From positions 1 to 33,051 of the forward strand of contig JADGBZ010000034.1 in the NCBI GenBank assembly GCA_015231175.1: a stretch of DNA of 33,051 nucleotides, given 5' to 3'. The stretch comes from Magnetococcales bacterium (lineage in GTDB: Bacteria > Pseudomonadota > Magnetococcia > Magnetococcales > DC0425bin3). Below the pieces are notes generated by a model that was not told where the DNA came from, did no database searches, and saw nothing but the letters and a program-made list of their open reading frames with translations. The position numbers were made by a program, and so were the translations under genes. Of the stretch, positions 4,092 through 22,957 are shown in pieces. How positions within the stretch are numbered: position 1 is the stretch's first letter; every line of letters begins with the position of its first letter.

Positions 4092-5504
4092 AGTAGTGTC
4101 CCAGGGAGTGGTGTAAATTTCGGAGCCAGCCGGGGGGCGGCGCAGCGCTCCTACGGATAGCTGGCGGAGCCGACCCCCGGCGGGATGGCGGTCACGGTGG
4201 TTCTTTCCTAGAGTGAAGTTGGCCACATCAACTCAAAGGAGAGGAGATCACCATGACCCCCGAGGACAGGATGACATTGTTGACCTTGGCGGAGAAGTCC
4301 GGAGAACCGAGCTTCTTGCGCGATCTGGGAGAATTCGTGCTTCAGAAGCTGATGGAGATCGAGGCGGAGGAGCGTTGCGGCGCTGGCCGCTATGATCGTT
4401 CGGACGAAAGGAGCAACTATCGGAACGGGTATCGGGATCGTCTCCTGGAAACCCGGCTGGGAACCATGGAGTTGAAGGTCCCGAAGTTGCGCAAGGGCAG
4501 CTACTATCCGTCCTTCCTTGAGCCCCGCAAGACGACGGAAAAGGCATTGGTGGCCGTGGTGCAGGAAGCCTATGTTCAAGGCGTATCCACCCGGCGGGTT
4601 GACGAACTGGTCCAGGCCATGGGTATGAGCGGCATCTCCAAGAGCCAGGTTTCCAGGCTGTGCGCCGAGATCGATGAGCGCGTCCGATCCTTCCTGGACA
4701 GGCCCCTGGCGGGAGAATGGCCTTTCCTCTGGCTGGACGCCACTTGGCTCAAGGTGCGACGGGCGGGGCGCATCATCTCCGTGGCCGCAACCATCGCCGT
4801 AGCCGTGAACAGTCAGGGACAGCGAGAAATCATCGGTCTCAAGGTCGGTCTGTCCGAGGCGGAACTTTTCTGGACCGACTTCCTGCGCAGTCTGGTAGGC
4901 AGGGGGCTGACAGGTGTTCGGCTGGTCGTCTCCGATGCCCATGGCGGCCTGAAGGCGGCTATCGGAAAGGTCCTGGGAGCCACATGGCAGCGATGCCGGG
5001 TCCACTTCATGCGCAACATCCTGGCCTGTGCTCCCAAGAGCCATGCCGACATGGTGGCCGCCGCCGTCCGCACCGCCTTCGCCCAGGAGGACATGGAGTC
5101 CGCCAGACGTCAGTGGCGCTCTGTGGCTGATTCCTTGCGGGGGAAGTTCAAGGAGGCGGCCAGGACCATGGACGAGGCCGAAGATGACGTCCTGGCCTTC
5201 ATGGGCTTCCCCAGGAAACTGCGTCGCCAGATCCATTCCACCAACACCATTGAACGGCTCAACCGGGAGATCAAACGCCGCACCGACGTGGTGGGCATCT
5301 TCCCCAATGAGGAGGCCATCATCCGACTCACGGGAGCTGTCCTCATGGAGATCAACGACGACTGGACCGTCTCCAGACGCTACCTGAGCCTGGAGGCCAT
5401 CAAGGAATCCATGAACGAAAACGGTGACGCAATGACCATGCTTGAAGCTGCTTGATCAGACAAAGGAGAGACCACCGAATTTCCACCACTTGACGGGACA
5501 TGAT
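4092..5504 (+). mobile_element. IS256-family insertion sequence, apparently complete
   Basis: The 1,413-bp element holds a single intact transposase gene. Its ends carry imperfect inverted repeats that align as TGTCCC, then AGTGGTG and AAATT(T)CGG: left from 4097, right reading inward from 5500. The few bases outside TGTCCC (4092-4096 and 5501-5504) match poorly, so the termini are set by the flanking 9-bp duplication CCTTGGCCG rather than by the repeats. The 4117-4252 leader is GC-rich with no gene visible. An intact coding frame, matching ends and an intact duplication together indicate a recent insertion. Confidence 0.88.
4253..5455 (+). CDS. IS256-family (mutator-type) transposase
   Basis: The 400-residue product is full length for the family. 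The DDE triad is visible as Asp162 (FLWLDATWLKVR), Asp228 (LVVSDAHGGLKAA) and Glu334 (STNTIERLNREIKRRT), the last inside the family's signature near the C-terminus. The N-terminal part has the usual GAGRYDRSDERSNYRNGYR segment. Translation starts at an ATG with a strong AGGAGAGGAG leader. It is the only gene of its element and catalyses cut or copy-out transposition of it. No frameshift or stop is seen. Confidence 0.96.
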   Translation: MTPEDRMTLLTLAEKSGEPSFLRDLGEFVLQKLMEIEAEERCGAGRYDRSDERSNYRNGYRDRLLETRLGTMELKVPKLRKGSYYPSFLEPRKTTEKALVAVVQEAYVQGVSTRRVDELVQAMGMSGISKSQVSRLCAEIDERVRSFLDRPLAGEWPFLWLDATWLKVRRAGRIISVAATIAVAVNSQGQREIIGLKVGLSEAELFWTDFLRSLVGRGLTGVRLVVSDAHGGLKAAIGKVLGATWQRCRVHFMRNILACAPKSHADMVAAAVRTAFAQEDMESARRQWRSVADSLRGKFKEAARTMDEAEDDVLAFMGFPRKLRRQIHSTNTIERLNREIKRRTDVVGIFPNEEAIIRLTGAVLMEINDDWTVSRRYLSLEAIKESMNENGDAMTMLEAA

Positions 5505-6990: not shown

Positions 6991-8025
6991 TTATCTCGTT
7001 CGAAACTCCGCGAGCCGGGAACAATCGACCAGACGGTCGAGGTTCTGGAGAGTAAAAACCTTGCCATGGGTAGCCAGGAGCAGCTTTTTCATGTCCTCCC
7101 GCCGCACCTTGAATCCCCTGCCAGCCACACAGGCAATGACCTCGAACCTGGGTGGCTGGTCCTGGTTTCTTCCTTGCATGGACAAAGCACCCAGATGTTG
7201 GACACGGGTCACCTTATCCCGTGCCGTGCCGTCGTCCTCGGTGATCTTGGCCTCGATAACCACCAGGGGATTGAACTCGTCGGGTATGATGAAATCTGGG
7301 GCTTGGTCGAAGCCGATCATGCGTTCGGCTCGCTTGGTCTTGCGGAACCCGACCCCGGCGCGGACCAAAGCCCCCTCGATAGCACTTTCCAACACATCGC
7401 CCACCAGTTCACTTACCGAGTCCCGGTGCCCTGCGAATGGCCGCCCCAGGAAGCGTTCGTAGAGCAGCATGGCGTAGGGCACCCCCATGTCGGCGAGAGG
7501 CTGAATGCTGGCCAAGCCGTTCCGGGTGTCTGCCTGTTCCAGGCGGTGCATGGTGCCCTCCACCACCGAAGGGGCACCTTCCCTGAGCAGAAGGCATGCC
7601 GTTTCGACCAGAGCACGCAACCGCTGACTGGTTAAGCTGTTGCCCAATTTCAGGGCGGTAAGCGGTTCCATCCTGATCTTGCGGTCCAGGGTACGAATCG
7701 CCCCTTGGCTCACGTCAATACCCGTCCGTTGGATGGCCACATAGGCCCACTCCGGCGGCGTAAATCCCAGTATGGCCCGCAACACGATGAAGGAGACAGG
7801 AGTCTGCTGGACCACTTCAAGCAGAATCTCAGGAGATATCTGGCGGAACCCTCCTGTGGCGCGCTTGATGGCCTCGTAGCCCTGGGCAAACGCGGGATAA
7901 TCGATGAATCCTGGCCCTTTCGGCAATGTCAGGAACTCGGATTGCAGACTGCCGAACACCGCATCGACGTAGATGTCCAGATCTGACTGGATTTCCGCGA
8001 AGGGTACCTCAAAGGGGAACGGCAT
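6991..8025 (-). CDS. PD-(D/E)XK nuclease, probable restriction endonuclease partner of the adjacent methylase
   Basis: The 344-residue protein has a C-terminal nuclease core. Asp244 sits in APDFIIPDE and Glu258-Ala-Lys260 in LVVIEAK, the D...ExK spacing of PD-(D/E)XK enzymes. Glu217 in the preceding helix may be the extra acidic residue. The N-terminal 200 residues are helical with no motif I recognise and may provide DNA recognition. The start is placed at ATG 8025 because GGAGGG lies 7 nt upstream; a longer frame to 8133 has no such support. It overlaps the methylase gene's end by 17 nt, so the two are co-translated. Together they look like a restriction-modification pair. Specificity cannot be inferred. 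A Mrr-like or other repair nuclease is less likely given the context. Confidence 0.75.
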   Translation of the reverse strand: MPFPFEVPFAEIQSDLDIYVDAVFGSLQSEFLTLPKGPGFIDYPAFAQGYEAIKRATGGFRQISPEILLEVVQQTPVSFIVLRAILGFTPPEWAYVAIQRTGIDVSQGAIRTLDRKIRMEPLTALKLGNSLTSQRLRALVETACLLLREGAPSVVEGTMHRLEQADTRNGLASIQPLADMGVPYAMLLYERFLGRPFAGHRDSVSELVGDVLESAIEGALVRAGVGFRKTKRAERMIGFDQAPDFIIPDEFNPLVVIEAKITEDDGTARDKVTRVQHLGALSMQGRNQDQPPRFEVIACVAGRGFKVRREDMKKLLLATHGKVFTLQNLDRLVDCSRLAEFRTR

Positions 8026-10201
8026 GGGTTTCCCTCCAGGCAAACAGTCCTGCCGTCGGTTCCTCTTCGCAAACGGGTGCAGCGATGCCAGCAACAATCC
8101 GTTTAATGGCTTCCTGGCTATCCCCGAAACCATTCACTGTTTGGGCCAGGATCGCTAGCCTCTCCGGCGTCGTCAGGTTGGGATTCCATGTGTGCCGCAA
8201 CCGCCAGATGGCCATACGGGTAAGATGACCAAATACGATGCAACGGACATCCCCGGCGGATGGCTTCAGTCCCGCTTTGCGTAGCTGAATCAACTCCCTG
8301 ATCACAATGGGCAGAAGAACGTCAATCTCACCGAACAGGAGCGTTGCGTTGGTTTGGCCATTGGCCCGGCAAACAAACACCGTATCGACGATGGACGAGC
8401 CAGTTCCGTGGATGTGGATCGATCCCCCCATTTCAGCCGGACATGGCAGGGATGCGGTGCAGGTCAATCCAGCGTCCAGGATGGCAACCCCCACCGCGTG
8501 GTAGGCCTCGATCCGGTTGTGATGGTAAGTGAAGGCCAGAGGCGCACCAGGTTTCAACGCCTGTGCCATGCGCCGGTAAACTGCGGACAGCCCTTCGGTG
8601 AAATACTCAAACCCTCGTCCCTGGGAAACATTGCCGGTCAGTTCCTGCGGTGATAGCGCCGTCTTCTGGTCGAACCCCACACATCCGCTGTCGGCCAACT
8701 GCCGCAGCCAAGCATGGCAGAAATCCATCAGTTCCCCATACTGGACATTGCCGAAGTAAGGCGGATCGGTGAGTACTGCGTCCAGAGTGGCGGTGGGTAG
8801 CGTCATATCTGTCGAGGATGCACGGTGGAGTTCCACCCTGCGTGGGCGAGCACCGTTGTTGCGCTCGCCTATCCACTCTCCCTGGATCGGGATGGTGGTC
8901 TTGCGTCCGTTCCTGTGGTCCACCTCGAAGGGTGCGCTGCAATAACGTTTGGCCTTCAGGAATTTCTCCACGATGTTTGCCCACCCTCCTGAGCCCACGT
9001 TCACACCGTGGCCGTTGAGGGTGCCGAGCAGATTGGATTCGCACTGCACCAGACCCACCGGAAAACCGTGGACAGAGAAAATATCCAATGACTTTAATGC
9101 CATTGTGTCGTATCGGCACAACATGTTCTGGTAACGGAGCAGATCGGAGAGGTTGGTTGCCAGGGCGCGTCGTACCCGTTCGTCGGCGATTCCGGCAATG
9201 AGGCGGCAGCTCAGTTCCAAGCCCAGGAGTTGGCGCTCGTTGAACATGTCCCGATAGCGTCCGTACCCCCACCGGTGCAAGCGACCAGTTTCGTCTCCAG
9301 CGGGAATGATATCCTCGGGAACAAATCTGGGGGTTGTCTCCTGCCAACGGGATGTGGCCAGCTTGGCTTTCTCCAGATCCTTGGCGTCCGGCTTTTTGAA
9401 GAAACGTCCCCGGTGGCGTTCTTTTTGGTGGGGATTGTGGTATTCAATGGCGAAAAGCCGATGTCCGGGTGGTTCCGCTCCCGGTCTGGGGTAGCTGTTG
9501 GCATGACCGCAATGAGGGCAGGAACACTGACCGCGTTTGGCAGGCCCGACGTTGCGCAGTCCGCTTCCGCACCCACCGCATCTTCCGGGGTTTCGGAGGT
9601 CTACCACCTCGTTCAAGTCGCCGCAACCAGGGCAGACCAAAACATTGCGAGGGTGTCGCTTGTTCTCGGCCAGCAGGTAGCCGGGGAACAGGTCGAAGGT
9701 GCCGCCACACCGTTCGCAGTCAAGAACCTTGACCCAGAGGAAGTACTTCACGGGTACATCGCGCTCTCCGTACAAAGGACAGTCGGTGTTGTACAGTCCC
9801 CCAACCTCGCGTTCCAAATCGGCCATCAGACCATCGGCGGCAATTCGGTAAGCGGCAAGGTCGAGATGCTCAATCTCTTCCCGGACAATCCAAAAGGACA
9901 TGGGGTTGATGTCGCAACCGATCACGTCACAGCCGACGCGGTTGGCCTCGATCAATGGCGTACCGCCTCCCATGAAGGGGTCAGCTACGGTCTTTCCTGA
10001 AAAATCGTTGGCACGGAAGAACGTCTCTGCCAGAGGGCGATCCCCAAACTCTGCCAGCAACAACCCCCGGAATAGCGTGCCAGGACGGCGGGCAAACCAC
10101 TTATGCACGGCGATGATCGGTCGGTAGTTTTGCTGAATCTGCTTCTCTTTCAATGCCAGGGAAGCGATCAAGGAGATATCGAAGGTCGATTCGATGGTCA
10201 T
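8009..10201 (-). CDS. DUF1156-type DNA methyltransferase with zinc-finger insert
   Basis: The 730-residue protein begins with a DUF1156-like segment (IIAVHKWFARRPGTLFRGLL). This leads into the SAM-binding motif DPFMGGGTPLIEA (74-86) and then the catalytic motif TDPPYFGNVQYGE (478-490). The order FxGxG before DPPY and the DPPY type indicate N6-adenine or N4-cytosine methylation. Between the motifs lies an insert with four cysteine pairs (Cys162/165, 190/193, 208/211, 228/231), probably two zinc ribbons. The start is ATG 10201 with GGAG 12 nt upstream; an in-frame TTG at 10219 overlaps that site and is less likely. The gene overlaps the nuclease gene downstream. DUF1156 proteins also occur in multi-gene anti-phage systems with a helicase and a DUF499 ATPase, but neither is present here. 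Confidence 0.85.
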   Translation of the reverse strand: MTIESTFDISLIASLALKEKQIQQNYRPIIAVHKWFARRPGTLFRGLLLAEFGDRPLAETFFRANDFSGKTVADPFMGGGTPLIEANRVGCDVIGCDINPMSFWIVREEIEHLDLAAYRIAADGLMADLEREVGGLYNTDCPLYGERDVPVKYFLWVKVLDCERCGGTFDLFPGYLLAENKRHPRNVLVCPGCGDLNEVVDLRNPGRCGGCGSGLRNVGPAKRGQCSCPHCGHANSYPRPGAEPPGHRLFAIEYHNPHQKERHRGRFFKKPDAKDLEKAKLATSRWQETTPRFVPEDIIPAGDETGRLHRWGYGRYRDMFNERQLLGLELSCRLIAGIADERVRRALATNLSDLLRYQNMLCRYDTMALKSLDIFSVHGFPVGLVQCESNLLGTLNGHGVNVGSGGWANIVEKFLKAKRYCSAPFEVDHRNGRKTTIPIQGEWIGERNNGARPRRVELHRASSTDMTLPTATLDAVLTDPPYFGNVQYGELMDFCHAWLRQLADSGCVGFDQKTALSPQELTGNVSQGRGFEYFTEGLSAVYRRMAQALKPGAPLAFTYHHNRIEAYHAVGVAILDAGLTCTASLPCPAEMGGSIHIHGTGSSIVDTVFVCRANGQTNATLLFGEIDVLLPIVIRELIQLRKAGLKPSAGDVRCIVFGHLTRMAIWRLRHTWNPNLTTPERLAILAQTVNGFGDSQEAIKRIVAGIAAPVCEEEPTAGLFAWRETHAVPL

Positions 10202-10302
10202 TGAAAAGGGTGTCTCCAAGAGTTGATCTGGTCTTCCGAAGATGATCTCGGACCCAAGTTTACCTCCTTTTCCGTTTTCAAGCCAACCATCCTGCGCATC
10301 AA

Positions 10303-10840: not shown

Positions 10841-10986
10841 GGAGGGACTGACCGAAGGCCCCGAATTGGGGGGTGCGGAAGGCTACCCTCCCGCCCACCC
10901 TTTCTGAGAGCCGTGCCGAAATCTAGGATCCACCATCTGCATGGCTTTTGGCCATTTTTCAAAACGGCGCGAGGACAGTTTCAGCA

Positions 10987-12057
10987 ATGGCGAGTTCGTT
11001 CGTGTTCCTCCTGTGGACCATGATGGCCCACTTCTTCAGTCCCCGGCACAACGCCGAGATCCGGTTCCTCAAGGCCCAGATCCGCATCCTTCAGGCGCGG
11101 GTGACGACCAACCGGATCGCTCCGACGCCGGAGGAAAAATCAGAACTTCTCCGCATCGGTGCCGAATGCGACCACAATGTGGCCGACCTGATGGAGATCG
11201 TCAAGCCCGCCACCTACCGGCGTTGGGTCAGCCAGTCCACCAAGGATCAGCCCATCAAGCCGCTCGGACGCCCCCGGCCGACCCAGGAACTGCGGGACGC
11301 CGCCATACTCATGGCCAAGGAAAACATCCTCTGGGGCTACCGACGCATTGCCGGAGAACTCAAGAGGCTGGGGCGGTATGCCGGAGCCACCACGGTCAAG
11401 CGGATTTTTCGGGAAGCCAACATCCACCCAACCCCCGAGAAGGAGAAGAAGAAACCGCCCCTGCCTTGGCTGACTTTCCTCAAGGCCCACCTGGAATCCG
11501 TCGTGGCCTGCGATTTCTTTACCAAGGACGTCTTCACCCCCATGGGCAAGATGACGGCCTACGCCATGGTCTTCATCCACCTGGGCAGCAGGCGGGTCCA
11601 TTGCAGCGCGCCGACCTATTCCCCCGACAGCGCCTGGGTGACCCAGCAAGCCCGCAACGCCCTGATGTGGTGCGACGAGCAAGGCGTCAGGCCCCGATTT
11701 CTGATCCGCGACGCCGACACCAAATTCTCTGGCCCCTTCAACGAGGTCTGGAAATCAGAAGGGGGCCGGGTTATCCAGATTCCCAATGGGGCACCCCAAG
11801 CCAACGCATACTGCGAGTCCTTCATCGGCACCCTGAAGCGGGAGTGCCTGGATTTCTTCGTCTGCTTCAGCAATTCCCAGCTCGCCTACATTTTGAAGAC
11901 CTGGGTTCGTCATTATAACACCGAGCGACCGCATTCCGGCGAAGGGATCGGGAACAACGTCCTTTGTCCAGACTTCCGGCCCCATGTGTCCGGGCCAATC
12001 CGATGTTGAGAAGCACTTGGGGGGATCGTCCGATCCTACTACAGACAGGCGGCATAA
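10987..12057 (+). pseudogene. rve/DDE integrase-core transposase with a premature TGA near the C-terminus
   Basis: From ATG 10987 the frame gives 340 residues to TGA 12007-12009. An N-terminal helix-turn-helix (residues about 50-145, with WGYRRIAGELKRLG) precedes the rve catalytic core: Asp176 (VVACDFFTKD), Asp242/244 (LIRDADTKFSG) and Glu277 (AYCESFIGTLKRECLDFF). The end HYNTERPHSGEGIGN is typical of the family. Immediately after the TGA the same frame continues as EALGGIVRSYYRQAA to TAA 12055-12057. This is the terminal motif such transposases normally carry (usually ..RC-R-E-x-LGG..YYR.A). CGA to TGA at one codon would explain it. The catalytic core is complete, so activity may survive. 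I could not define inverted repeats or target duplications. Confidence 0.8.
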
Positions 12058-12243: not shown

Positions 12244-13407
12244 TTAGCATCCCTTATAGTGAAGCAATCGATCGATTGCTTCACTCAAAACATCTGGATC
12301 GCAAGCCACATTTATCCGGCCAAAGCCTTCCCACTCTGATCCGTATCCCGAACCATCGTCCAACGAAACTTTGGCTCGCCGCAAGGCATTGAAGCATGAT
12401 CGATATGGTGGGAAACCCAGTTCCCTCAAATTCACCCAAATAAAAGGTGTCGAACCAAAGCAATAAAAAGAGTCAGAACTTAATACATTTGCAAACCGTT
12501 TCTTCGCAACCAACATGTTCTCGCGAATAGCAACCCGAGCTTCTGCCAGCCAATCCAACCCACTTGTGAGACAGGCGGATGCAACACACTCAAATAAAGC
12601 AGTTGGAGGACAAACACGAGGATGCGAAAAATCGCGAAATATATCACCAGTCTTGTAATTCGAAAAAGCAAGCCAAGCACCACGTATAGAAGAAACTGCC
12701 CATGACTTAGTCACCGATTCTGCAAGAACTACATCATTAGAATTCTCAAAGATACTCTTCAAAAAATCCATCTCACTTAAGTCTAGAAGCGGTCTGTATA
12801 TACAATCAATAACAATTTTCATGCCCGCACGAGTTGCTAGACTAGCTAAATCAATAGCTTCTTGTTTGCTGAAAATTGATCCAGTGGGCACATGTGGAAA
12901 CGTCATCAGCACCGCTCCTTGCGTCCCATCGCACGCCGCTTCAACTGCATCAACATCAATTGACACACCATCGGCGGTACAGCACAAGTTAACAACTTCA
13001 GGCACTCCACCGCCAGAAACAATGGCGTTACACAGACCTGGGTATGCCGGACCAAGAACGATTATCTTTTTTTTGCTACGGTCAAGAAGTCGAACTATCT
13101 CGCTTATAGCAAATAGCAGCCCACCAACGAACTGCAGATTTGCTATATCAAAATTAATGCCTATTTCTTGGTATTGCTTCTGCAGAATCTCACGTAGTTT
13201 TGTCCTCTCATTGCCTGGAAAATATCCAAGATCGCTAGATCTGGCTTTCTGTGCAATTGCGTTTACAATGTGCTCCGAGACTCTGCAGTCAAATTCTGCA
13301 ACATCAAGGGGCAAAACGTCTTTCCCAAAACGCGACCATTTAAGACTACTTCGCTTTCGGCAATCAGTTTCCGATAGCCAGTTAAACTGTGAAGGTTTAG
13401 AAGGCAT
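12244..13407 (-). CDS. PLP-dependent aminotransferase / C-S lyase-like enzyme (fold type I, MalY/PatB-like)
   Basis: The 387-residue protein shows the class I/II aminotransferase layout. VLPLDVAEFDCRVSEHIVNAI resembles the MalY 'WVADMDF' opening. LGYFPGN comes next, then Asp201/Tyr204 in IVIDCIYRPL, and Lys234 in AESVTKSW, which should form the PLP Schiff base. Near the end, GFGRINVACDP supplies the substrate-carboxylate Arg. The usual NPxNPTG motif reads FPHVPTG, so Val replaces the Asn that contacts PLP O3'. This is unusual and may alter chemistry or abolish it. The start ATG 13407 overlaps the upstream gene's end by 11 nt; in-frame ATGs further upstream lie deep inside that gene. It is the last gene of the leftward AT-rich set. 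An aminotransferase or beta-lyase role is inference; the substrate is unknown. Confidence 0.75.
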   Translation of the reverse strand: MPSKPSQFNWLSETDCRKRSSLKWSRFGKDVLPLDVAEFDCRVSEHIVNAIAQKARSSDLGYFPGNERTKLREILQKQYQEIGINFDIANLQFVGGLLFAISEIVRLLDRSKKKIIVLGPAYPGLCNAIVSGGGVPEVVNLCCTADGVSIDVDAVEAACDGTQGAVLMTFPHVPTGSIFSKQEAIDLASLATRAGMKIVIDCIYRPLLDLSEMDFLKSIFENSNDVVLAESVTKSWAVSSIRGAWLAFSNYKTGDIFRDFSHPRVCPPTALFECVASACLTSGLDWLAEARVAIRENMLVAKKRFANVLSSDSFYCFGSTPFIWVNLRELGFPPYRSCFNALRRAKVSLDDGSGYGSEWEGFGRINVACDPDVLSEAIDRLLHYKGC

Positions 13408-14599
13408 TTGTCTGCAAGGGAAATACCCACTCCTCATTAATTTTTGGTACCTGTACATTACCAGCGACACGTTTAACTTGAAACAAAGCTTCAAACGAGA
13501 CCACATTTCTGGAAAAACCAGCAAATTTTCCTCTTACGGTACGGAAATTTTCAGCGGCTTGTGGAAGGTCACTAAATGCTAGTGCTGCTCCCAAGACACC
13601 AGAAGTGTGCAACCCATGCACCATAATCACCGAAGCACTTGGATCGAAGGGGTTCGGAAAGCGTGCAAAATATCCATAGTCGATTAATAACAATCCATCA
13701 TGATATTCAGGTCTAATAACTTGGATGGAATCACCACTTTCAAGATTCAACGATTCTCCATCTTCCGCATACTTGATCGCGCTCCTTATAGTTCGATTAA
13801 ATTCCCGACAAATTGGGTTTCCAGGTAAAACATCATCAATCCCAGGGCCACCAATTACAACAAGGTTATCCCTCAATAACTGTTTACCTGGAAACTCGTC
13901 TGAAGTGTATTTATGGACGCGAGAGCTATAGTTTCGCGATAGAAACACCATTAGCTCAAGAACAGTATCTTTATCGCTAAACTGCTCAAGATAAACATGA
14001 TTTCTGTGGTTTGGGTTTGATGAGTATAAATTATCTGTAGATTTCGATGCTACAATATGAATTGCGCCTGTCTCCTGAGGAAACCAAATTAGATTTCTAT
14101 CCATTGGGCTAATTCTCTGCCCTGCAAGGACTTCATGCACCTTTTCTACCAATCGATAAGGCAGCGTTACCGACAGATTAGCATCATCCTCATAATAGAG
14201 CGGATCATCATAAAAATCGGTGTTTCTTATGCTTTCCACTCTCTCTCTTCTTATCGTAATAATATGAGGTATTTTTGCGGCTTCACAATACCCTGCTTGG
14301 TACAGCTCAACAGCTGAGTCGCCAGCGCTAATATCTAAAATCAACAATGATGATGCATTCAATGCAGACACCACATTCCTGGCTGTAATTTTACTTTGTG
14401 AAGTTTGTTGTGCAACTAGCTCAACTTCTAAGTGTACGCCTTCTTCTGTAAGCATAGCTGATGCAGCCGCTGCCGCTTTAGTCACCGATGCACTAAAAAT
14501 CGATGCAGCTTCAGTGTTTCCACGGTAACAAGTGCCAATGGCAACTAACACTCTGACAGTTTTCTTGCCCGAAGCCTGTTTATTGGGTTTAGGTGACAT
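13397..14599 (-). CDS. Two-domain protein with an N-terminal nucleoside deoxyribosyltransferase/TIR-like domain
   Basis: Residues about 16-160 form an alternating alpha/beta domain opening RVLVAIGTCY. A core LLILDISAGDSAVELYQAGY (85-104) resembles the 'D-S-G-x-x-x-E-x-G-x-A' signature of nucleoside 2-deoxyribosyltransferases and related TIR-like nucleotide-processing folds; Glu98 would be the nucleophile. The C-terminal half (about 245-400) has NLVVIGGPG, then LIDYGYFARFPNPFDP, then VIMVHGLHTSGVLGAAL. It looks like a second folded sensor or ligand-binding domain that I cannot name. The start is uncertain: ATG 14599, or TTG 14611 overlapping the upstream stop. Either way the gene is translationally coupled upstream and overlaps the PLP enzyme downstream by 11 nt. 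Proteins with such domains are frequent in bacterial conflict systems, but a metabolic role is equally possible. Confidence 0.6.
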   Translation of the reverse strand: MSPKPNKQASGKKTVRVLVAIGTCYRGNTEAASIFSASVTKAAAAASAMLTEEGVHLEVELVAQQTSQSKITARNVVSALNASSLLILDISAGDSAVELYQAGYCEAAKIPHIITIRRERVESIRNTDFYDDPLYYEDDANLSVTLPYRLVEKVHEVLAGQRISPMDRNLIWFPQETGAIHIVASKSTDNLYSSNPNHRNHVYLEQFSDKDTVLELMVFLSRNYSSRVHKYTSDEFPGKQLLRDNLVVIGGPGIDDVLPGNPICREFNRTIRSAIKYAEDGESLNLESGDSIQVIRPEYHDGLLLIDYGYFARFPNPFDPSASVIMVHGLHTSGVLGAALAFSDLPQAAENFRTVRGKFAGFSRNVVSFEALFQVKRVAGNVQVPKINEEWVFPLQTNAF

Positions 14600-14607
14600 A
14601 TCAATAC

Positions 14608-15369
14608 TCAATTCTTATCAATCATTTTCATGCGACGAAGAAATAGTTTTTGAATGATTTCAGTTGGAGGTGAAACCGAAAACAAAACCGACCCTGCTCC
14701 AAGCGACAATCCTAAAGACGGATCCACAATTCCTGCAATCAATGACGCTGTTGACAGAGCAACCAAACTTACTCGCTCAGCAAGAGCAATGTTACCAATG
14801 GCACTTAGACACATTCCATAGGTTAGTAAATTTGCCCCGATATTAGATAATAACTCAGGCCGCATGAGCCACAAGTCCAACTCAACCGAACGGTTTATGA
14901 TAGGCAAGACCTTGATTGTAAGGTAGTCAGCTATTTCAAAGTAGATGGAAGCTTGTTCTTTGTCAGAGACCATCCTAGTTTCATTAATTATTACTTGAAC
15001 TGTCCTAATTATCCCCCTCACTTTGTCTTCAGATACTACGGATATACTGCGCTCACGGTCATCTGTAGATTCAATTTTCTTTAGTTCTGACAAAAAAGTG
15101 GAATCTTTGCTTGGTTTCGTAATTTCAGATGCCCAGAGATCTATGAAATCTATACCCAACTCAATTGTGGGTTTCTTTATCTCAGTACATAAATTCAGGA
15201 TAATATTTGCTGTGACAAGCTTATTGTCCAAGTTTGATCCTGCACTAGGCCCCCAAACGGTTTTAGACCAAAGCAAGAGGCCAAATTCGTCTGTTTGATG
15301 AGAACGATTTCGTGCTAGTCGCCCTAGAGTTGATATTACATGAAGCGGGTCAATTTGTATCTCGCTCAT
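14608..15369 (-). CDS. Unknown 253-residue protein with hydrophobic C-terminal region
   Basis: No family is recognised. The first 170 residues are mixed and charged. Residues about 178-232 are strongly hydrophobic and rich in Ala, Gly, Leu and Ser (LLTYGMCLSAIGNIALA, SLVALSTASLIAGIV, LGLSLGAGSVLFSV), compatible with two or three membrane segments. The basic tail FLRRMKM would lie on the cytoplasmic side. ATG 15369 has GGGA about 9 nt upstream. Its end touches the next gene (4-nt overlap if that gene uses TTG 14611), so the two are likely expressed together. Directly upstream lies an IS1182-family remnant, which separates this gene from the biosynthetic genes further right and may have cut an original operon. 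A membrane-anchored partner of the NDT-like protein is a plausible guess only. Confidence 0.5.
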   Translation of the reverse strand: MSEIQIDPLHVISTLGRLARNRSHQTDEFGLLLWSKTVWGPSAGSNLDNKLVTANIILNLCTEIKKPTIELGIDFIDLWASEITKPSKDSTFLSELKKIESTDDRERSISVVSEDKVRGIIRTVQVIINETRMVSDKEQASIYFEIADYLTIKVLPIINRSVELDLWLMRPELLSNIGANLLTYGMCLSAIGNIALAERVSLVALSTASLIAGIVDPSLGLSLGAGSVLFSVSPPTEIIQKLFLRRMKMIDKN

Positions 15370-15499
15370 ATCAATGTCCCATTTAGGAGTCTGTCTCCAA
15401 ATAGTCTGGCTAGTTGGTTACAGTGGTCAGTTGACCGAAAGTAGGCCCTGCCAGTCCGGTTTCTTACTGACGAAAAGGCGGGAATTCCACCCTCAATGG

Positions 15500-15860
15500 A
15501 GCTATTTGGCCCCTTTCTCCCCTCTGCGGACGTACTCCACCTGCATTTTCTTGAGATTGTGCTCCACGGCGTGCAGTTCCACTCCCCATCGCAAAACTTG
15601 ATCCCGCGCATCCGGAACTCGTCCGTACCCTGGGTTTCCTTCATCTGCCCGAACACTGGCTCATCTTCCGTCATCCATTCTCGATTTTATAGCATCTTTC
15701 CGCACTTGGTCAACAGCTTCCGCTCCATCCGTTCCCGATTCGTCAGATCCTGCGGAATCCTCCATCCGCCCCCGTGGTGCCACCTGTTCTTACATCGCTC
15801 GTCGATGTTTCCAATCCTTCCGGGTGGCGATCAACAGTTCACAGTCGTCTGTCCCCGCCC
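15500..15860 (-). pseudogene. IS1182-family transposase, C-terminal remnant
   Basis: The leftward frames carry the C-terminal signature of IS1182-type transposases in broken form. LLIATRKDWKHRRAM comes first, then RIPQDLTNRERMERKL with a stop codon soon after, then EPVFGQMKETQGTDEFRMRG. After a one-base frame change comes LHAVEHNLKKMQVEYVRRGE. At least one stop and one frameshift are needed to join them, and the N-terminal three quarters of the gene are absent. It is dead. It sits between the glycosyltransferase gene and the hydrophobic-protein gene, in sequence more GC-rich than its neighbours. Confidence 0.75.
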
Positions 15861-16110
15861 CGTTGTTCTCATCCGACTGAGGTGGACGGACCCCAAAGCA
15901 AGGACAGAAATCGGATCGGAATAAGCTACACCCTACCCATGGTAGAAGGCCGTTCCGGACCACCCTTTCGCGTGTCAAATTTTAAAAATGGTTTTCCCAA
16001 GACTCCATGCTCAGATGAGGAGAAGGGGGCATGGTTGCGGGAAACGGTCGTATCGTTTTGTTGGTCTCGAATCCGGGGTCCATTTTACTGCTCTTCTATC
16101 CAAACATGAT
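15861..16110. other. Scar sequence between the IS1182 remnant and the glycosyltransferase gene
   Basis: No gene is recognisable in these 250 bp or in 15370-15499 on the other side of the remnant. The composition is intermediate and probably represents decayed insertion-sequence ends. Intact inverted repeats or a target duplication were not found by eye. Confidence 0.45.
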
Positions 16111-17343
16111 TTATCGTGCTAACCTCATAGAACTATTTGCAGCAGATATTATTTTATTCAAGATATTCTGGCTGCAGATCTTATTAGCAACACAGGCTTT
16201 CACCCTATTGATCTCTTCCAGTGATGCCTCGTACAATACAGCTTGCTGGAAGTCTTCGTGTGTTCGTCGATAGGTCCAATTATCAGGGATAAGGTTGGCG
16301 GCTCCTACATATCCGTTTTTTGGTACAACAATCTTAGCTCCCGCTATTATTGCCTCAAGCATAGTATAAGGAACCAAATCATACCTTGATGTGCAGGCCA
16401 CAACCCCACAACTCGCAATCCAAGGAAATACAGATTGAATCAATACATTGTGTGGAAGTCGAGGAAGACGAGTTATATGCTGCCTAAATCCACAATCAAG
16501 CTTGCTATCAATTTCGCGAAACACAGGATCTTCAATCTCACCACCTATCAAGACAACCCCGCTAATCATGCCTGATGCAATGATACCATGAACACCCTCC
16601 AAAAAGAAATCAACATCTTTAAAGTAGTCAAACCTTGAAACAGCAAAGAGTACATATCTTTCGCCATTATTTGTAGCTAATTGTTTCAGTTCATCCGGAA
16701 GTAAATCGTGTTTTATGAATGATTCATTGTTTACCACGGGCGGAAGATTAAAGATGCGCGATCTATTAATCCCAAGGAGATTTAGATGGTCAATTTGTAT
16801 TTTACTTATCTCTGCGAACACTACATTACAACGGTTTGTAAGTTTTTCGAGTGCGCCACTCTGACGACACAAAAGGAAATCTGCTTTTGGGTGATCCCAA
16901 TCAAATGCCATCCGTCCATTTTCTTCACCAAGAAACGCAAAAACTGAGCTGACAAAAGGCGAATGATTGGTAATTACTATAGGTATGCTTGGTTCGAAGT
17001 AATCAGCAACTGCTAAACTCTGGCAATATAAAATAGCCCTGCAATCGTTACTCGATAAAAGCCTAAATTCGCCTGAAAAAAATTTAATCAAATCATCACG
17101 TCGCATGTCAAAATTAAAAGAAACGATGGAAGCATCATAATCCATAATGCGGCACCGCTTGCATTTCGGCTGCAGTAATGTTTGATCGCGATTGTACAAT
17201 AAAAAACTAACTTCAATTCCTGCCCCAGAAAGAATTTCTGAAATATGCAGAACGTGTTGGACCACTCCATAGATGAACGCAGAATTCCGTTCTATAGGAA
17301 CAAACTTATTGTTGAAAACGATAACCATCCTTTTTAAAGACAC
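16111..17343 (-). CDS. GT4-family glycosyltransferase
   Basis: The 410-residue protein has the two Rossmann-like halves of GT-B enzymes. The nucleotide-sugar half contains RYVLFAVSRFDYFKDVDFFL, the usual 'hGRhxxxKG' strand. It then has ACTSRYDLVPYTMLEAIIAGAKIVVP, which is the EX7E motif with Asp in place of the first Glu. The N-terminal half carries the acceptor-side helices (GVVQHVLHISEILSGAG) expected for lipid- or glycan-linked acceptors. The GTG start at 17343 is preferred because GGGGGA lies 8 nt before it; the first ATG (17328) lacks spacing. It follows the beta-helix acyltransferase gene by 32 bp and is probably co-transcribed. It should add a hexose-type sugar to a glycan, lipid or small-molecule acceptor; the exact substrate is unknown. 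Confidence 0.82.
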   Translation of the reverse strand: MSLKRMVIVFNNKFVPIERNSAFIYGVVQHVLHISEILSGAGIEVSFLLYNRDQTLLQPKCKRCRIMDYDASIVSFNFDMRRDDLIKFFSGEFRLLSSNDCRAILYCQSLAVADYFEPSIPIVITNHSPFVSSVFAFLGEENGRMAFDWDHPKADFLLCRQSGALEKLTNRCNVVFAEISKIQIDHLNLLGINRSRIFNLPPVVNNESFIKHDLLPDELKQLATNNGERYVLFAVSRFDYFKDVDFFLEGVHGIIASGMISGVVLIGGEIEDPVFREIDSKLDCGFRQHITRLPRLPHNVLIQSVFPWIASCGVVACTSRYDLVPYTMLEAIIAGAKIVVPKNGYVGAANLIPDNWTYRRTHEDFQQAVLYEASLEEINRVKACVANKICSQNILNKIISAANSSMRLAR

Positions 17344-17375: not shown

Positions 17376-17951
17376 CTACGACCTTGCCCTAACAAGTCCA
17401 CGCATTGATTTAAGTGGCCTCCACTTCCCGCTCCCAATAAATGTTTTTGCTGGAACATCACTTCGAACAATTTCTCCAGCAGCAATATAAGAGCCTTTTC
17501 CGATTACTATTCCTCCAACAATTTCCGCACCTTGCGCAATAACCACTCCTTCTCTGATAATTGGAGAAACTTCGTCGACCTCTCCCCACTTCAAGGTCGC
17601 GTCTTGATACTGATGAGACATTTCACCCATCATGGTCACCTTCGGTCCAATAACTGTGCGGTCAGGAATATTTCCTCCTATGATGCAGTCCGGTCCGATA
17701 AGCGCATGTCTAGCTACTCTAACGGCATCGACAAGTTGAGATCTTTGCCCAATCCTTGAACCTCTTCCAACTACAGAATGGTGTGCGAGGATCACGTCTG
17801 CTTCGAGATATGCACCTGCCTCGATGACGCAAAATGCCCCTATTATTACACCCGCTTCAATTATTGTTGACTCCTCTACTTCACCTGGAAGTGAGTAGCC
17901 AATCACTGCTGTTGGGTGAACAATTGCGCTTTCATGAATTTTAACGGACAT
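17376..17951 (-). CDS. Left-handed beta-helix (hexapeptide-repeat) acyltransferase
   Basis: The 191-residue protein is built almost entirely of hexapeptide repeats ([LIV]-G-x4): AVIGYS, GVIIGAFCVIEAGAYLEADV, VVGRGSRIG, IIGGNI, VIGPKV, then GVVIAQGAEIVGGIVIGKGS. Catalytic His candidates are His53/His54 in ILAHHSVVG and the later His of MSHQYQD. Members transfer acetyl or longer acyl groups from CoA or a carrier protein to sugar hydroxyl or amino groups. The neighbouring adenylation enzyme and carrier protein make an acyl-carrier donor plausible, and the adjacent glycosyltransferase makes a sugar acceptor plausible. Six bases separate it from the hydrolase gene upstream. The start at ATG 17951 has no strong Shine-Dalgarno, as expected for coupled translation. 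Confidence 0.82.
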   Translation of the reverse strand: MSVKIHESAIVHPTAVIGYSLPGEVEESTIIEAGVIIGAFCVIEAGAYLEADVILAHHSVVGRGSRIGQRSQLVDAVRVARHALIGPDCIIGGNIPDRTVIGPKVTMMGEMSHQYQDATLKWGEVDEVSPIIREGVVIAQGAEIVGGIVIGKGSYIAAGEIVRSDVPAKTFIGSGKWRPLKSMRGLVRARS

Positions 17952-17957
17952 TTTTGC

Positions 17958-18824
17958 CTAGCCTATCACTGGAAATTTTCCACTAAGGGAACCATGGTTT
18001 AACAACCCAATAAGCTCCTCGAACACTGATGCCTGAAAGAACTTTGTCTTTTCTTCTTTGAAATTTGCATCACCAGGTTGAGCAAAACCATGATCTGCTC
18101 CTGGGATTTCTATGAGTTTTGCTTCATTATGGTCTCCCTTAACGCGGTTTCTCGAAATTGTAATGTCTACCCCTGCATCTTTATCACCATGAAATATCCA
18201 GATATTTTTAGTCGGCAGCAAAGTTTCAAAAGCTTTGAATTCGTTAATTATCGGTCTCCCGAATGGCTTTCCCCATGAAACAAGTGTATTCTTCTGCGTT
18301 AATTCGACTATCGCGTTATCAGATAGACCGTCATAGTTCCCCTTGCTCTCTCCAGCTCTACCGCCTTCGTCCGAACCCTTAATGTACTCATGAATGTAGT
18401 CAAGGATTGGGGCAAAAAGAACACACTTATCTATCATACTCTCGTTTCTGGAACACCAAGTTGAAGCTACACCTCCGGAGAATGATTGAGCAAGAACTGA
18501 AATTTTAGATATTTTATTGATCGACTCGCTAGCTATTCTTACTGCGGCATCAATATCGTTGTACAATCCCGCCAACGTTAATTCGGATAGTGGGCGACTT
18601 GAGTCAAAACCATGACAACGCCAGTCGAAACGAAATGACGCTATTGAATTCTCACGTAGTTGACTTGCAAGCCTAGTATAAAATCCTAAGTATTCGTCCC
18701 TGGTAACGTTAATGCCTGGCACCATAACAAGCAATTGATCAAATACTCCCCCCTGTGGAATTTCGAGCGTTCCCTCAAGCTCAACACCATCAAAACTGGT
18801 AAATCGTAAATCTCTAACGGTCAT
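17958..18824 (-). CDS. Alpha/beta hydrolase (esterase or editing thioesterase type)
   Basis: The roughly 288-residue protein has an alpha/beta-hydrolase layout. An oxyanion-hole strand LLVMVPGINVTRDEYLG comes first, then FRFDWRCHGFDSS. The nucleophile elbow is SVLAQSFSGGVAS (Ser in AQSFSG). The acid Asp is in WIFHGDKDAGVD and the His in PGADHGFAQPGD, so the triad is complete. It may release or edit carrier-bound intermediates (type II thioesterase role) or hydrolyse an ester in the final product. This is inferred from its place between the carrier-protein and acyltransferase genes. The start is set at ATG 18824 with AGGGGG 6 nt upstream; ATG 18827 and TTG 18842 are alternatives. The last of these would overlap the carrier-protein gene. 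Confidence 0.8.
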   Translation of the reverse strand: MTVRDLRFTSFDGVELEGTLEIPQGGVFDQLLVMVPGINVTRDEYLGFYTRLASQLRENSIASFRFDWRCHGFDSSRPLSELTLAGLYNDIDAAVRIASESINKISKISVLAQSFSGGVASTWCSRNESMIDKCVLFAPILDYIHEYIKGSDEGGRAGESKGNYDGLSDNAIVELTQKNTLVSWGKPFGRPIINEFKAFETLLPTKNIWIFHGDKDAGVDITISRNRVKGDHNEAKLIEIPGADHGFAQPGDANFKEEKTKFFQASVFEELIGLLNHGSLSGKFPVIG

Positions 18825-18838
18825 CATAGTCCCCCTGT

Positions 18839-19099
18839 TCAATTACGAATGTTTCTTTTGTCAGACATTTTTTCTAGCAGCAACCCGTGGAGGGCCTCTA
18901 GAGAATCACACCTTACCATTTCTAAGTCGGATATTTCGACGGAAAACACTTCTTCAATCTTCTCAACTATTTCAATCGTTGCCAAACTGTCCCAGCCTGG
19001 AGTACGGTAGACTGCAATCTGGATATCATTTTCACAATTTTGTTTTATTCCGAGCACGTCTAGTATAATTATCCTTATTTTGCTTTTCATGTTAATCAT
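18839..19099 (-). CDS. Acyl/peptidyl carrier protein
   Basis: At 86 residues it is the right size for a free-standing carrier protein. The phosphopantetheine attachment motif is clear: GWDSLATIEIVEKIEEVF, where Ser of DSL would take the 4'-phosphopantetheine arm. Helix 3 follows with VEISDLEMVRCDSLEALHGL. The protein is acidic overall. It overlaps the end of the adenylation gene by 8 nt, implying a one-to-one partnership: the adenylating enzyme should load its acid onto this protein as a thioester. It needs a phosphopantetheinyl transferase encoded elsewhere. ATG 19099 is used; ATG 19090 is a close alternative. Confidence 0.9.
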   Translation of the reverse strand: MINMKSKIRIIILDVLGIKQNCENDIQIAVYRTPGWDSLATIEIVEKIEEVFSVEISDLEMVRCDSLEALHGLLLEKMSDKRNIRN

Positions 19100-20558
19100 T
19101 TTCCAAGCTTGAGCTGTCGTGGATAAGTTTCTCGCAAGCTGCGTAGTTGATTTTACCTCTTAAATTTCTAGGCAATACTTTAGCGGTCATGATGTTTGTT
19201 GGGCATACAAAACTAGGGACTTCTTCTGCCACGATTAGGTTAATTTGATCTACAGAAACAGCTGGAGATGCCTCTACCAACAGCGTTAAATCATCACCAG
19301 ACTTTAAGACCACACAAGTAGCACCTAATCTCTTTATAAGTAATTCTTCCATGGTTTCTAGTTGTACCCTATTGCCATTTCGAACTATCTCTCGTCCTAA
19401 CCGGCCTTGATACACAAGCCCATCCCCAGAATCATCTACAATATCGCTGGTGTTGTAAATTCCTACCTCTCCAGGAGCCTTCAATTGGTAAAAATTGCTT
19501 GAACCATTTTTTGTGTCTAACCACTCAATGCAAACCTGTTTACTGCTAATTTGAAGCTCACCAGAGCTACTTCCATTTCGTGGTAATATTTTAATACTTG
19601 TATTAACAGTTGGACTACCCAAATCAGGAATTGCTCGATCATTTTGCAGAGACAGTTTTTCCCGGTTGATATGCTTTATCATAGAGAAGCCTGCAACTTC
19701 AGCGCATCCATATGTTGTATATAATTTAGTTTTTCTGGGTAGCCAAGCATTCATTTCCACGAGCGTTGAATGATGGACGATATCACCTCCCAAACCAACA
19801 AATTCCAGACTGAGTTCGCGCTGCAAACTGCGCCTTCGGCCAGCGGAGATCAGCTTGGATATTTGAGGGACACTTCGGAAATGAGTAGCTTGAGATTTTG
19901 CAAGTTGTGCATAAGCACTTAGTGGGTTCTTTTGGGGATCGTAGTATATGCTGGAGCCTGACGTTAGAGCCATCAATGCATTGTTCATCCACATATCGGA
20001 TGTATAGTCACCACATTCTATCCAAATATGTTCAGGTCTCAGAGCAAGATTATAGCGGGCCCATTTCAGAAACTCCGCTAGCCCTAACGAGTCAACTCCT
20101 ATTATTTTGGGGGCCCCCAATGAACCAGAAGTCAAGGTCATATGGCTTACAGCAGAATGAAACGCACTTGGCTCTTTCTGGATCGGGATGACTTGATCGA
20201 CTGAACTAGTTTCTATTTTAAATTTAATATTAGCGGTAGAAATGACAAGCTTTGCGTCTAAAGTATTAATATGCCGTTTGACTGCTTCAATAGAGGTCTG
20301 CTCACCCAAAACCATCATTCGAAAATTACCCAGGCAGCTAGCAAGTAGTGTCGCGTACATTACACTGCTGTCAGCTCCAAAGTAGATTACATAGTCATTC
20401 CTGCTAACTTTATTATGCGTAGCAAGACTGATGACACCTGAAACCAAGTGTGACAGATCTGTGTAAGTTATTTTACCCCAAGATCCTGCTAAAGCGATCA
20501 AGTTATCGTGTCTCTCAAACGAACTTAAGATCAGGCTTCTCATGTTTACAGTGTCCAA
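19092..20558 (-). CDS. Stand-alone adenylation enzyme (AMP-binding superfamily)
   Basis: The 488-residue protein shows the ANL-superfamily core motifs. The P-loop-like MTLTSGSLGAPK is A3. YTTYGCAEVAGF is A5. IYNTSDIVDDSGDGLVYQGR is A7, and GREIVRNGNRVQLETMEELL is A8. The C-terminal Lys in LPRNLRGKINY is A10. All catalytic positions are kept, so it should activate a carboxylic or amino acid as the acyl-adenylate and load the carrier protein encoded next. The substrate pocket (IWIECGDYTSDMWMNNALMAL) is not one I can decode. Start: TTG 20558 has GGGAG 9 nt upstream and is preferred over ATG 20543, which lacks a site. It is the first gene of the leftward operon; a MITE-like element sits 34 bp upstream and could affect its promoter. 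Confidence 0.86.
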   Translation of the reverse strand: MDTVNMRSLILSSFERHDNLIALAGSWGKITYTDLSHLVSGVISLATHNKVSRNDYVIYFGADSSVMYATLLASCLGNFRMMVLGEQTSIEAVKRHINTLDAKLVISTANIKFKIETSSVDQVIPIQKEPSAFHSAVSHMTLTSGSLGAPKIIGVDSLGLAEFLKWARYNLALRPEHIWIECGDYTSDMWMNNALMALTSGSSIYYDPQKNPLSAYAQLAKSQATHFRSVPQISKLISAGRRRSLQRELSLEFVGLGGDIVHHSTLVEMNAWLPRKTKLYTTYGCAEVAGFSMIKHINREKLSLQNDRAIPDLGSPTVNTSIKILPRNGSSSGELQISSKQVCIEWLDTKNGSSNFYQLKAPGEVGIYNTSDIVDDSGDGLVYQGRLGREIVRNGNRVQLETMEELLIKRLGATCVVLKSGDDLTLLVEASPAVSVDQINLIVAEEVPSFVCPTNIMTAKVLPRNLRGKINYAACEKLIHDSSSLEND

Positions 20559-21737: not shown

Positions 21738-22957
21738 CAGGGCAATCGCATTTCAAAATTGAGCGAGGAGGGTTGCGAGAAAGTCATTGCTCCAACCAGC
21801 ACGTTTGAATTTGACGCGCATGGATCCCTTTGATCCATCTTTTCGGACGATGTTTGTGGCCATATGGCGAAGAACGGCCAAGTTTTCCGGACCGTTGTCC
21901 TTGCGTGAGCGGTTTTGGTCCTCGTTGAGGACAACATCAAGTACCCAGTGCAGGCTATTCTCAATGCCCCAATGCGAGCGAACGACTTGTCCAAAACGTT
22001 CGGCAGATAATGGTGTACTCAGAAGATAATAAGCTGTTTCTGTGGTTTTTTTTATGGATGTCTCGCGAATTCTGTCCACCTTGCCAATCGCTGCCAAACC
22101 TGGCCAGGAATGAAATTTTTGAAGCCAATCAATGTCAGTCGAAACCACTGCGGTCCGGATTTCGATACGCCCGTGGTCACCATCGGTTGTGGTATGCGGA
22201 ACACATTTAACTTCCGGGTCATTGAAGAATAGGCTGACATCAGTATGCAAGGTGCCCTGGTTTCCTTTGAGAGCAAACGCATAATCTCCGCCCTGATCAA
22301 CGATCTGTTGAGCGATGCTGCGTTGGCAATTGAGAGCATCAACGGTGACAATATTGCCTTTAAGTGAGAGCATTTTCAATAAGTTGGGAACTGCGGTAAT
22401 TTCATTGGACTTGGTGTCGGTGGCTACCTGGGCCAGTACCATTCTTTGTTCACAACCCCAGGCACTGACCATATGCAGAGCGGATTGTCCGCTTGCTGTG
22501 TCGAAAGAGTGGCGAAGTGCCTTGCCATCAATGGCGATAACGCCTCGGCAGATTTCTGAAAAATGGGCCATGAATTTTATAAAACAGGCTTGGAACTGCT
22601 TTGGGTCAATCAGTCTGAACACCCGACTGAATGTGTCATGGCTCGGAATGCCGTACTCCAATTTCAGGAATTGGCGGAGAAACTCTTCTTTTGCCTGACC
22701 GAATATCTGCATATCCACTGCGGTTTGTCCTCCACATAGAACCGTGCAAAGTGCAATCACTAAAATTTCCAATAAGTTATGCCGTTCAGCATGGCCTGTT
22801 CTGGGATCCTCTAACGAGTCAAAACACGCAGCGAAATCCTCCATGACTTTTCCTCCACAGTTCGTTTGTCACGCAACTGTGAAAGGATTGGTCGATTTTT
22901 GTAACCAGCACAAGCCTGCTCGTTGGTGTCAACAGATTTTGAAATGCGATTGCCCTG
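21738..22957 (-). mobile_element. ISAs1-family insertion sequence, intact
   Basis: The 1,220-bp element is bounded by perfect 22-bp inverted repeats beginning CAGGGCAATCGCATTTC (21738-21759 and 22936-22957). It contains one uninterrupted transposase gene whose stop codon lies inside the left repeat. The bases outside the two ends (ACACGGTAG and GCCCCTGCC) do not match, so no target duplication remains. The left end cuts the vsr gene. The right end abuts a 51-bp direct repeat. Confidence 0.92.
21753..22844 (-). CDS. ISAs1-family transposase
   Basis: The 363-residue protein is full length. The family opening FDSLEDPRTGHAERHNLLEI is followed by SHDTFSRVFRLIDP. The first catalytic Asp lies in GVIAIDGKALRHSFD, and later conserved segments are VDALNCQRSIAQQIV, GGDYAFALKGNQG and SHWGIENSLHWVLDVVLNED. 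No frame damage is seen. ATG 22844 opens the family N-terminus (MEDFAACF). It is the sole gene of its element and should be active. Confidence 0.95.
   Translation of the reverse strand: MEDFAACFDSLEDPRTGHAERHNLLEILVIALCTVLCGGQTAVDMQIFGQAKEEFLRQFLKLEYGIPSHDTFSRVFRLIDPKQFQACFIKFMAHFSEICRGVIAIDGKALRHSFDTASGQSALHMVSAWGCEQRMVLAQVATDTKSNEITAVPNLLKMLSLKGNIVTVDALNCQRSIAQQIVDQGGDYAFALKGNQGTLHTDVSLFFNDPEVKCVPHTTTDGDHGRIEIRTAVVSTDIDWLQKFHSWPGLAAIGKVDRIRETSIKKTTETAYYLLSTPLSAERFGQVVRSHWGIENSLHWVLDVVLNEDQNRSRKDNGPENLAVLRHMATNIVRKDGSKGSMRVKFKRAGWSNDFLATLLAQF

Follow-up and report, generated by a model that had tools for sequence, protein, structure and literature searches.

A protein with predicted NDT/TIR-like and BcsB-like domains is encoded among biosynthetic genes in a low-GC island of a Magnetococcales bacterium

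The 33,051-nt contig JADGBZ010000034.1 of a Magnetococcales bacterium (assembly GCA_015231175.1), referred to below as the window, carries on its minus strand a gene for a two-domain protein of 404 codons (p404), which is followed by the gene for a MalY/PatB-like enzyme dependent on pyridoxal phosphate (PLP). p404 is a real, unusual protein. We consider it somewhat probable that the genes for p404 and the PLP enzyme close a mobile seven-gene operon which makes a sugar-linked (amino)acyl compound, and that p404 joins this pathway to nucleotide chemistry. All three relatives of p404 among the matches listed are full-length; they were found in Azospirillum cavernae (locus L008), a Bacteroidales metagenome-assembled genome (L009), and Roseivirga echinicomitans (L010). 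The genes of the window are arranged from 20558 down to 12244 in the following order:

19092..20558, minus strand: AMP-forming adenylation enzyme (PF00501, E 4e-19; TIGR01733, E 2.4e-27, under its cut-off)
18839..19099, minus strand: acyl/peptidyl carrier protein (PF00550, E 1e-5; 39% identity with the L008 copy)
17958..18842, minus strand: alpha/beta hydrolase (PF12146, E 5e-12; 42% identity with the copy in L008 and 33% with that in L009)
17376..17951, minus strand: hexapeptide-repeat acyltransferase, LpxD/NeuD-like (PF00132, E 2.5e-16; 53%, 40% and 39% identity with the copies in L008, L009 and L010)
16111..17343, minus strand: GT4-like glycosyltransferase (Pfam Glyco_trans_1_4, E 1e-5, just below cut-off; 30% identity with the glycosyltransferase of the Azospirillum operon)
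15370..16110, minus strand: spacer of 741 bases with a decayed transposase C-terminus (DDE_Tnp_1_6, E 9e-4, 20.0 bits against a cut-off of 25.1)
14608..15369, minus strand: p253, an orphan protein outside the conserved set (ATG start at 15369; mildly hydrophobic C-terminal third)
13397..14611, minus strand: p404, with an N-domain (~17-165) and a C-domain (~210-400) delimited by models and fold searches
12244..13407, minus strand: MalY/PatB-like fold-type I PLP enzyme of 387 aa (PF00155, E 4.5e-24; 34% identity with the Azospirillum copy)

Within each gene block, neighbouring frames overlap or almost touch. A reading made from the sequence alone (the sequence-only reading) had described the last three genes as an overlapping trio, and all three frames are indeed present. 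The existence of relatives supports the frames of p404 and the PLP enzyme beyond chance; a stop-free run of 253 codons, as found for p253, occurred in none of 2000 mononucleotide shuffles of a 2-kb stretch. The 404 codons of p404 are counted from a TTG which overlaps the TGA of p253, and an ATG at 14599 is as good a start. The frame of the PLP enzyme opens at 13524 (426 codons) and stops at 12244. Its start is probably the ATG at 13407, because, with numbering from there, the alignment to the best PDB relative begins at residue 12 of the product; the gene then overlaps p404 by ~11 bases. A 28-base self-complementary stretch (12258-12285) lies inside the 3' end of this gene.

The adenylation enzyme matches PDB entry 7thn, an L-proline-[carrier protein] ligase (E 4e-13). 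The PLP enzyme belongs to aminotransferase class I/II (PF00155, 85.7 bits with a cut-off of 19.7), and its PDB matches include 3fdb (E 6e-27) and MalY (1d2f, E 9e-21). TIGR04350 (MalY/PatB C-S lyases) is its best-scoring model, at 143.9 of the 340 bits of the curated cut-off, which is thus not reached. The proposed MalY-like character was borne out by this best score and the PDB matches. The lysine is conserved, TKSW being aligned with SKSF of MalY, whose lysine we take to be the PLP-binding one.

The p404 relatives came from a scan of species genomes in which a 58-residue conserved stretch served as the query, and which gave at least three relatives among 591 pattern-matching stretches. Synteny was counted over four loci (the window and the three relatives), and the homology of shared genes was checked pairwise. 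Pairwise local identity of the window p404 to its orthologues is 48% (L008), 32% (L009), and 30% (L010). Adenylation, carrier, hexapeptide, and glycosyltransferase-like genes accompany p404 at all four loci, the alpha/beta hydrolase at three, the MalY-like enzyme at two (window and Azospirillum), and p253 in the window only. The order is adenylation-carrier-hydrolase-hexapeptide-p404-PLP enzyme-glycosyltransferase in L008, where it is unbroken, glycosyltransferase-like-hydrolase-hexapeptide-p404-adenylation-carrier in L009 (a 6.75 kb contig), and glycosyltransferase-like-hexapeptide-p404-adenylation-carrier in L010. Neither of the two Bacteroidota loci (L009, L010) has a PLP gene beside p404, and their glycosyltransferase-like genes, which match glycosyltransferase models weakly, show no homology to the window glycosyltransferase at E 1e-3.

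The fact that the synteny of p404 with biosynthetic genes spans distant lineages argues for its role in the operon. Of the two origins offered for the trio by the sequence-only reading, the tail of the biosynthetic operon is the one that held, as p404 lies in that operon in the window and in all three relatives among the matches listed. Since p253 is unique and the PLP gene optional, we reject the trio as an independent conflict system.

As part of the operon reading, p253 is probably a local addition outside the conserved gene set. It has no relatives in Pfam (up to E 1), PADLOC, PHROGs, or PDB, and in NCBIfam it matches TraB alone (E 0.055, 12.4 of 178 bits). None was found in plasmids, phages, and viral contigs or among 47 other genomes of its class. 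A match at E 0.0015 in one of 179 genomes was discarded, as it is a multi-transmembrane protein matched by hydrophobicity. p253 had been described as a hydrophobic, putative membrane protein. It is mildly hydrophobic, but its membrane nature is not established, since the highest 19-residue Kyte-Doolittle mean is 1.53. A SLATT/DUF4231 effector with two transmembrane segments was also considered and dropped: p253 has no such Pfam match up to E 1, unlike a 140-aa protein of Roseivirga described below.

The operon genes of the window have a GC content of 38-46%, whereas 1-kb blocks at 1-12 kb and 23-33 kb have 52-63%. In Azospirillum, the operon (~39-49% GC) is likewise set off from its flanks (56-70%), and this low GC content in both genomes is a further argument for the operon reading. 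The translation of the spacer contains stops and a frameshift. Because the spacer holds a decayed transposase and has a GC content (53%) unlike that of the operon genes, the operon probably came in whole and was split later. We thus consider it probable that it was horizontally acquired and is now split by the decayed transposase.

Transposase genes around the island are of the IS481/IS3-like (10948-12009), DDE_Tnp_1 (21753-22844), and Mutator (4253-5455) types. The window also contains a PhdYefM/PIN toxin-antitoxin pair (3290-3968) and, at 6991-10219, a gene for a DUF1156-type DNA methylase, overlapped by that of a 380-aa protein which is perhaps its restriction partner. Near the Azospirillum operon are transposase-like genes, with a phage-type integrase some kilobases off. 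Insertion sequences on either side, the decayed transposase within the island, and the orphan p253 would fit three unrelated leftover genes that were assembled by insertion sequences. However, p404 and the PLP enzyme are adjacent and in the same order in Azospirillum, the frames overlap, and both GC content and codon-position GC match the rest of the operon. This explanation, already disfavoured, is highly improbable.

For the N-domain, an AlphaFold2 model was computed from the four-sequence alignment of p404 (mean pLDDT 61.9). In the fold search with this model, MilB came first (Z 11.8, 135 residues, root-mean-square deviation 3.4), followed by DNPH1 (Z 11.3), the TIR domain of RPS4 (Z 10.8), and NDT (Z 10.3). 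The top four rows were MilB three times and DNPH1 (Z 11.3-11.8, 125-135 residues, deviation 3.0-3.4). That MilB, which acts as a CMP N-glycosidase in the biosynthesis of nucleoside antibiotics, ranks first favours the proposed link to nucleotide chemistry, and the predicted fold is also compatible with TIR. The fold alone does not prove NDT/TIR membership, because response regulators and Ras, which are unrelated alpha/beta folds, reach Z 10-11. A sequence link to NDT is provided by the L008 orthologue (PF05014, E 0.0072) and by N-domain matches in two phylum draws. None of the four p404 family members is above the curated cut-off of PF05014 (L008 has 16.9 of 28.8 bits; the window copy does not match).

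The sequence-only reading had predicted a nucleotide-processing-like domain with a D94/E98 pattern. While the N-terminal half is predicted to be NDT/TIR-like, these residues (D98 and E102 in the numbering from TTG) are not a conserved pair; the conserved columns are D93 and a Glu which is Gln105 in the window copy. The segment reads D93-ISAGDSAV-E102-LY-Q105-AGY. D93 does not vary among the four orthologues. All 61 distinct relatives in the alignment have Glu in the catalytic column, the three p404 orthologues included; this count is biased, since the profile used to find them contains that Glu. The three orthologues keep both the Glu and the D...N...E motif. In MilB this Glu is required, the E103A variant being inactive (PMC4081090). 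E102, about one helical turn before Gln105, might substitute for the catalytic Glu. Judged by these residues, the kept Glu favours catalysis in the three orthologues, and the Gln favours binding in the window copy.

The C-domain was folded separately (pTM 0.71, better than the whole-p404 model). With this model, the first eleven rows of a Foldseek search against PDB were all BcsB (best E 1.2e-3, prob 1.00). The superposition on the flavodoxin-like domain of BcsB has Z 9.9 over 163-166 residues (deviation 3.6-3.7). Other structural matches are the N-domains of GH84 (Z ~9) and GH67/GH115 (7-8) and the S-layer wall-anchoring domain of M. voltae (Z 6.9). No sequence-level match to BcsB, the glycoside hydrolase (GH) N-domains, or the S-layer anchor was found, and a BFVD fold search gave nothing at E <= 0.001. 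According to PMC11379886, the repeats of BcsB consist of a carbohydrate-binding-like region and a flavodoxin-like domain. That proteins of this kind fill the top rows supports a glycan-related role of p404 in the operon. A separate second domain had been proposed together with structure prediction and a fold search for both halves; the prediction yields a distinct, BcsB-like fold for the C-terminal half and the NDT/TIR similarity for the N-terminal one.

The C-domain motif GGPxxN...DYG...P...G.HT.G recurs, whole or in part, in other proteins. It occurs with an N-terminal hydrophobic segment, transmembrane-like by eye, in L075, L090, and L092, and with both a winged helix and a segment of this kind in L076, L077, and L091; L077, as a second example of the latter type, was excluded from the C-domain alignment. 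L078 (G636) had also been collected as a relative and was excluded from this alignment as a chance match to NFPNPFNPSTS, presumably a common surface-protein motif. At L090:6202-7808, in a genome of the order of Azospirillum, the membrane-type C-domain protein stands directly before a gene that is PP2C-like by eye (no Pfam match).

At a second Roseivirga locus (L092:4616-6784), genes for a hydrolase (27% identical to that of the L009 operon) and a hexapeptide transferase (30%) come after the one for the membrane-type C-domain protein, and the NDT fold is absent. This co-occurrence without the NDT fold favours a shared ligand of the C-domain, hydrolase, and hexapeptide transferase, and the pairing of a membrane-anchored C-domain with the same two enzyme families again speaks for the operon reading. 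From its sequence relatives, the spread of the C-domain on membrane and DNA-binding proteins would favour p404 as a sensor. p404 could then be a receptor-regulator, with a C-domain which senses the product and an N-domain serving as a non-catalytic nucleotide-binding switch that controls the pathway enzymes. Gln105 in place of Glu, the winged-helix proteins with a transmembrane-like segment, and the PP2C-like neighbour in L090 are in line with this, but the N-domains of at least the three orthologues, which keep the Glu, look catalytic. We regard this role as distinctly unlikely.

Full-length p404 is rare. Among 398 genomes of its phylum, the window p404 matched only itself, and in even draws the full-length protein occurred only in the seed genome (1 of 395 in the phylum of Roseivirga, 1 of 397 in that of Azospirillum). 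Further positive genomes in these draws (71 and 32, respectively) have one domain only, which is the N-domain in 99 of the 103. The window p404 matches no Pfam, NCBIfam, or PADLOC model up to E 1 (PHROGs best E 0.43) and has no plasmid or phage relatives. Three scans of viral contigs gave no p404 relative, and three viral-contig loci picked by motif pattern turned out not to be relatives. Five Streptococcus prophages match part of the N-terminal half of the Roseivirga p404 (27.6% identity). No plasmid matches were obtained for a C-domain relative or, at 1e-10, for the hexapeptide gene. Hydrolase matches on eight actinobacterial plasmid records were set aside, as their contexts, viewed for six of the records (two of them without annotated genes), look unrelated.

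In Roseivirga, the p404 operon is the second of two tandem, same-strand, low-GC units at the 3' end of rhaM (L010:2750-10232). The first, just upstream, is a pair of a 140-aa SLATT protein (DUF4231, 3.6e-22; SLATT_1, 3.5e-8) and a 429-aa TIR/NDT-type protein (CAP12-TIR, E 0.006; NDT, E 0.0065; both below cut-off). The island has 31-39% GC and its flanks mostly 41-51%. Ahead of both units stand one and the same 215-bp leader (88%) and an incomplete copy of the rhaM 3' end (93% over 81 bp; 77% over 95 bp between the units). This probably reflects two insertions, one after the other, at a single target; an integrase gene was seen in neither unit, and the right end of the p404 unit yielded no copy of the leader's palindromic core. 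This core is present at seven places in the genome (nine below E 1e-3, two of which are the rhaM ends):

L010:3180-3246 and L010:5494-5559: copies of the palindromic element before the tandem units
L122:4187-4254, L123:1770-1836, L124:5111-5178, L125:4266-4333 and L126:4541-4606: other copies in the same genome

The element is attC-like and bounded by AAC...GTT. In six of the seven copies, which are dispersed, 10-12 of 13 arm positions pair, and in the seventh 8 of 13. One copy precedes a type III-A retron (phosphoribosyltransferase, winged helix, and reverse transcriptase), one a PLD-nuclease-like gene, and one lies between an HNH protein and an integron/Xer-type recombinase (209.7 of 265 bits for TIGR02249; 220.6 of 220 for NF040815, site-specific tyrosine recombinase/integron integrase). 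The remaining two precede two unknown ORFs and an SDR plus AraC pair. Pairing of SLATT with TIR is described for Firmicutes phages (PMC9503650), and anti-phage genes carried in integron cassettes have been reviewed (PMC12409362).

A conflict role for the whole operon is therefore possible, mainly by way of Roseivirga. In such an anti-phage or interbacterial cassette, the operon would make an acyl-sugar ligand, the C-domain would sense this ligand or its change in infection, the NDT/TIR domain would cleave NAD or a nucleotide, and p253 would be a membrane accessory. The tandem arrangement with a common leader, the leader copies at the retron, nuclease-like, and recombinase-HNH genes, a match of the PADLOC TIR "Effector" model to the Roseivirga p404 (E 6e-4), and the toxin-antitoxin pair and DNA methylase in the window all point this way. 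However, the window trio has no PADLOC match and its N-domain is without the usual Glu; the genes behind two of the leader copies have no link to defence, and defence cassettes do not typically carry seven-gene biosynthetic sets. The leader repeat, moreover, was followed in Roseivirga alone of the p404 loci, and its place before defence genes may be due to chance. We consider a conflict cassette possible, if doubtful. Rather unlikely, in our opinion, is a mobile conflict or signalling cassette whose own adenylation, carrier, acyltransferase, and glycosyltransferase set builds a sugar-linked ligand to be read by a fusion of a carbohydrate-type sensor domain (BcsB/GH-N/S-layer-anchor fold) with a nucleotide-cleaving TIR/NDT domain, such that immunity or self-recognition would be gated by a home-made glycoconjugate and not by a cyclic nucleotide.

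Several points weigh against the biosynthetic operon reading. The cassette context in Roseivirga points to a conflict function. C-domains on transmembrane and winged-helix-transmembrane proteins look like sensors and not like biosynthetic enzymes. The window N-domain may be no active glycosidase, as the catalytic column carries Gln105 and E102 stands three residues earlier. The p404 model is modest, with the Z scores of unrelated alpha/beta folds close behind, and full-length p404 loci appear to be few, namely the window and the three among the matches listed.

Gene set, synteny, low-GC island, and fold similarities were observed, and the biosynthetic operon reading draws on the protein families for substrates, reaction order, and product. 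The PLP enzyme would make or trim an amino acid, which the adenylation enzyme would charge onto the carrier protein. The hexapeptide transferase would pass the loaded group to an amino sugar positioned by the glycosyltransferase, and the hydrolase would free or edit the product. The p404 C-domain may bind the glycan part and the N-domain may act on an N-glycosidic nucleotide ligand, in the window copy perhaps by binding only.

Among known systems, the MilB/BlsM-type CMP N-glycosidases of the NDT family provide the best structural match to the N-domain and an NDT-type protein inside a biosynthetic operon, but p404 has a second domain and very low identity (7%), does not reach the PF05014 cut-off, and carries Gln at the position of Glu103 in MilB. 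Conflict pairs of SLATT with TIR/NDT-type proteins (TIR-DrHyd-SLOG clade) share the predicted NDT/TIR fold, the tandem neighbour in Roseivirga, and the idea of a membrane partner, whereas p253 matches no SLATT model and p404 is embedded among biosynthetic genes. BcsB, GH84, GH67, GH115, and S-layer anchor domains resemble the predicted fold of the C-domain; p404 differs by the motif GGPG...DYGYFARFPNPF and the fused NDT/TIR fold, and no sequence-level link was found. DltA/DltC-like and other stand-alone adenylation-carrier pairs with an acyltransferase follow the same logic of adenylation domain, carrier, and transferase, to which the window operon adds a hexapeptide transferase, glycosyltransferase, hydrolase, and p404. 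In the literature searched, we did not find a TIR/NDT-type domain paired with a glycan-associated fold within a biosynthetic operon. As a reader of the operon product, p404 would tie natural-product enzymes to TIR-type signalling; as an enzyme, it would be a two-domain relative of the N-glycosidases from nucleoside-antibiotic pathways. In both cases the operon, at ~8 kb, is compact and experimentally tractable.

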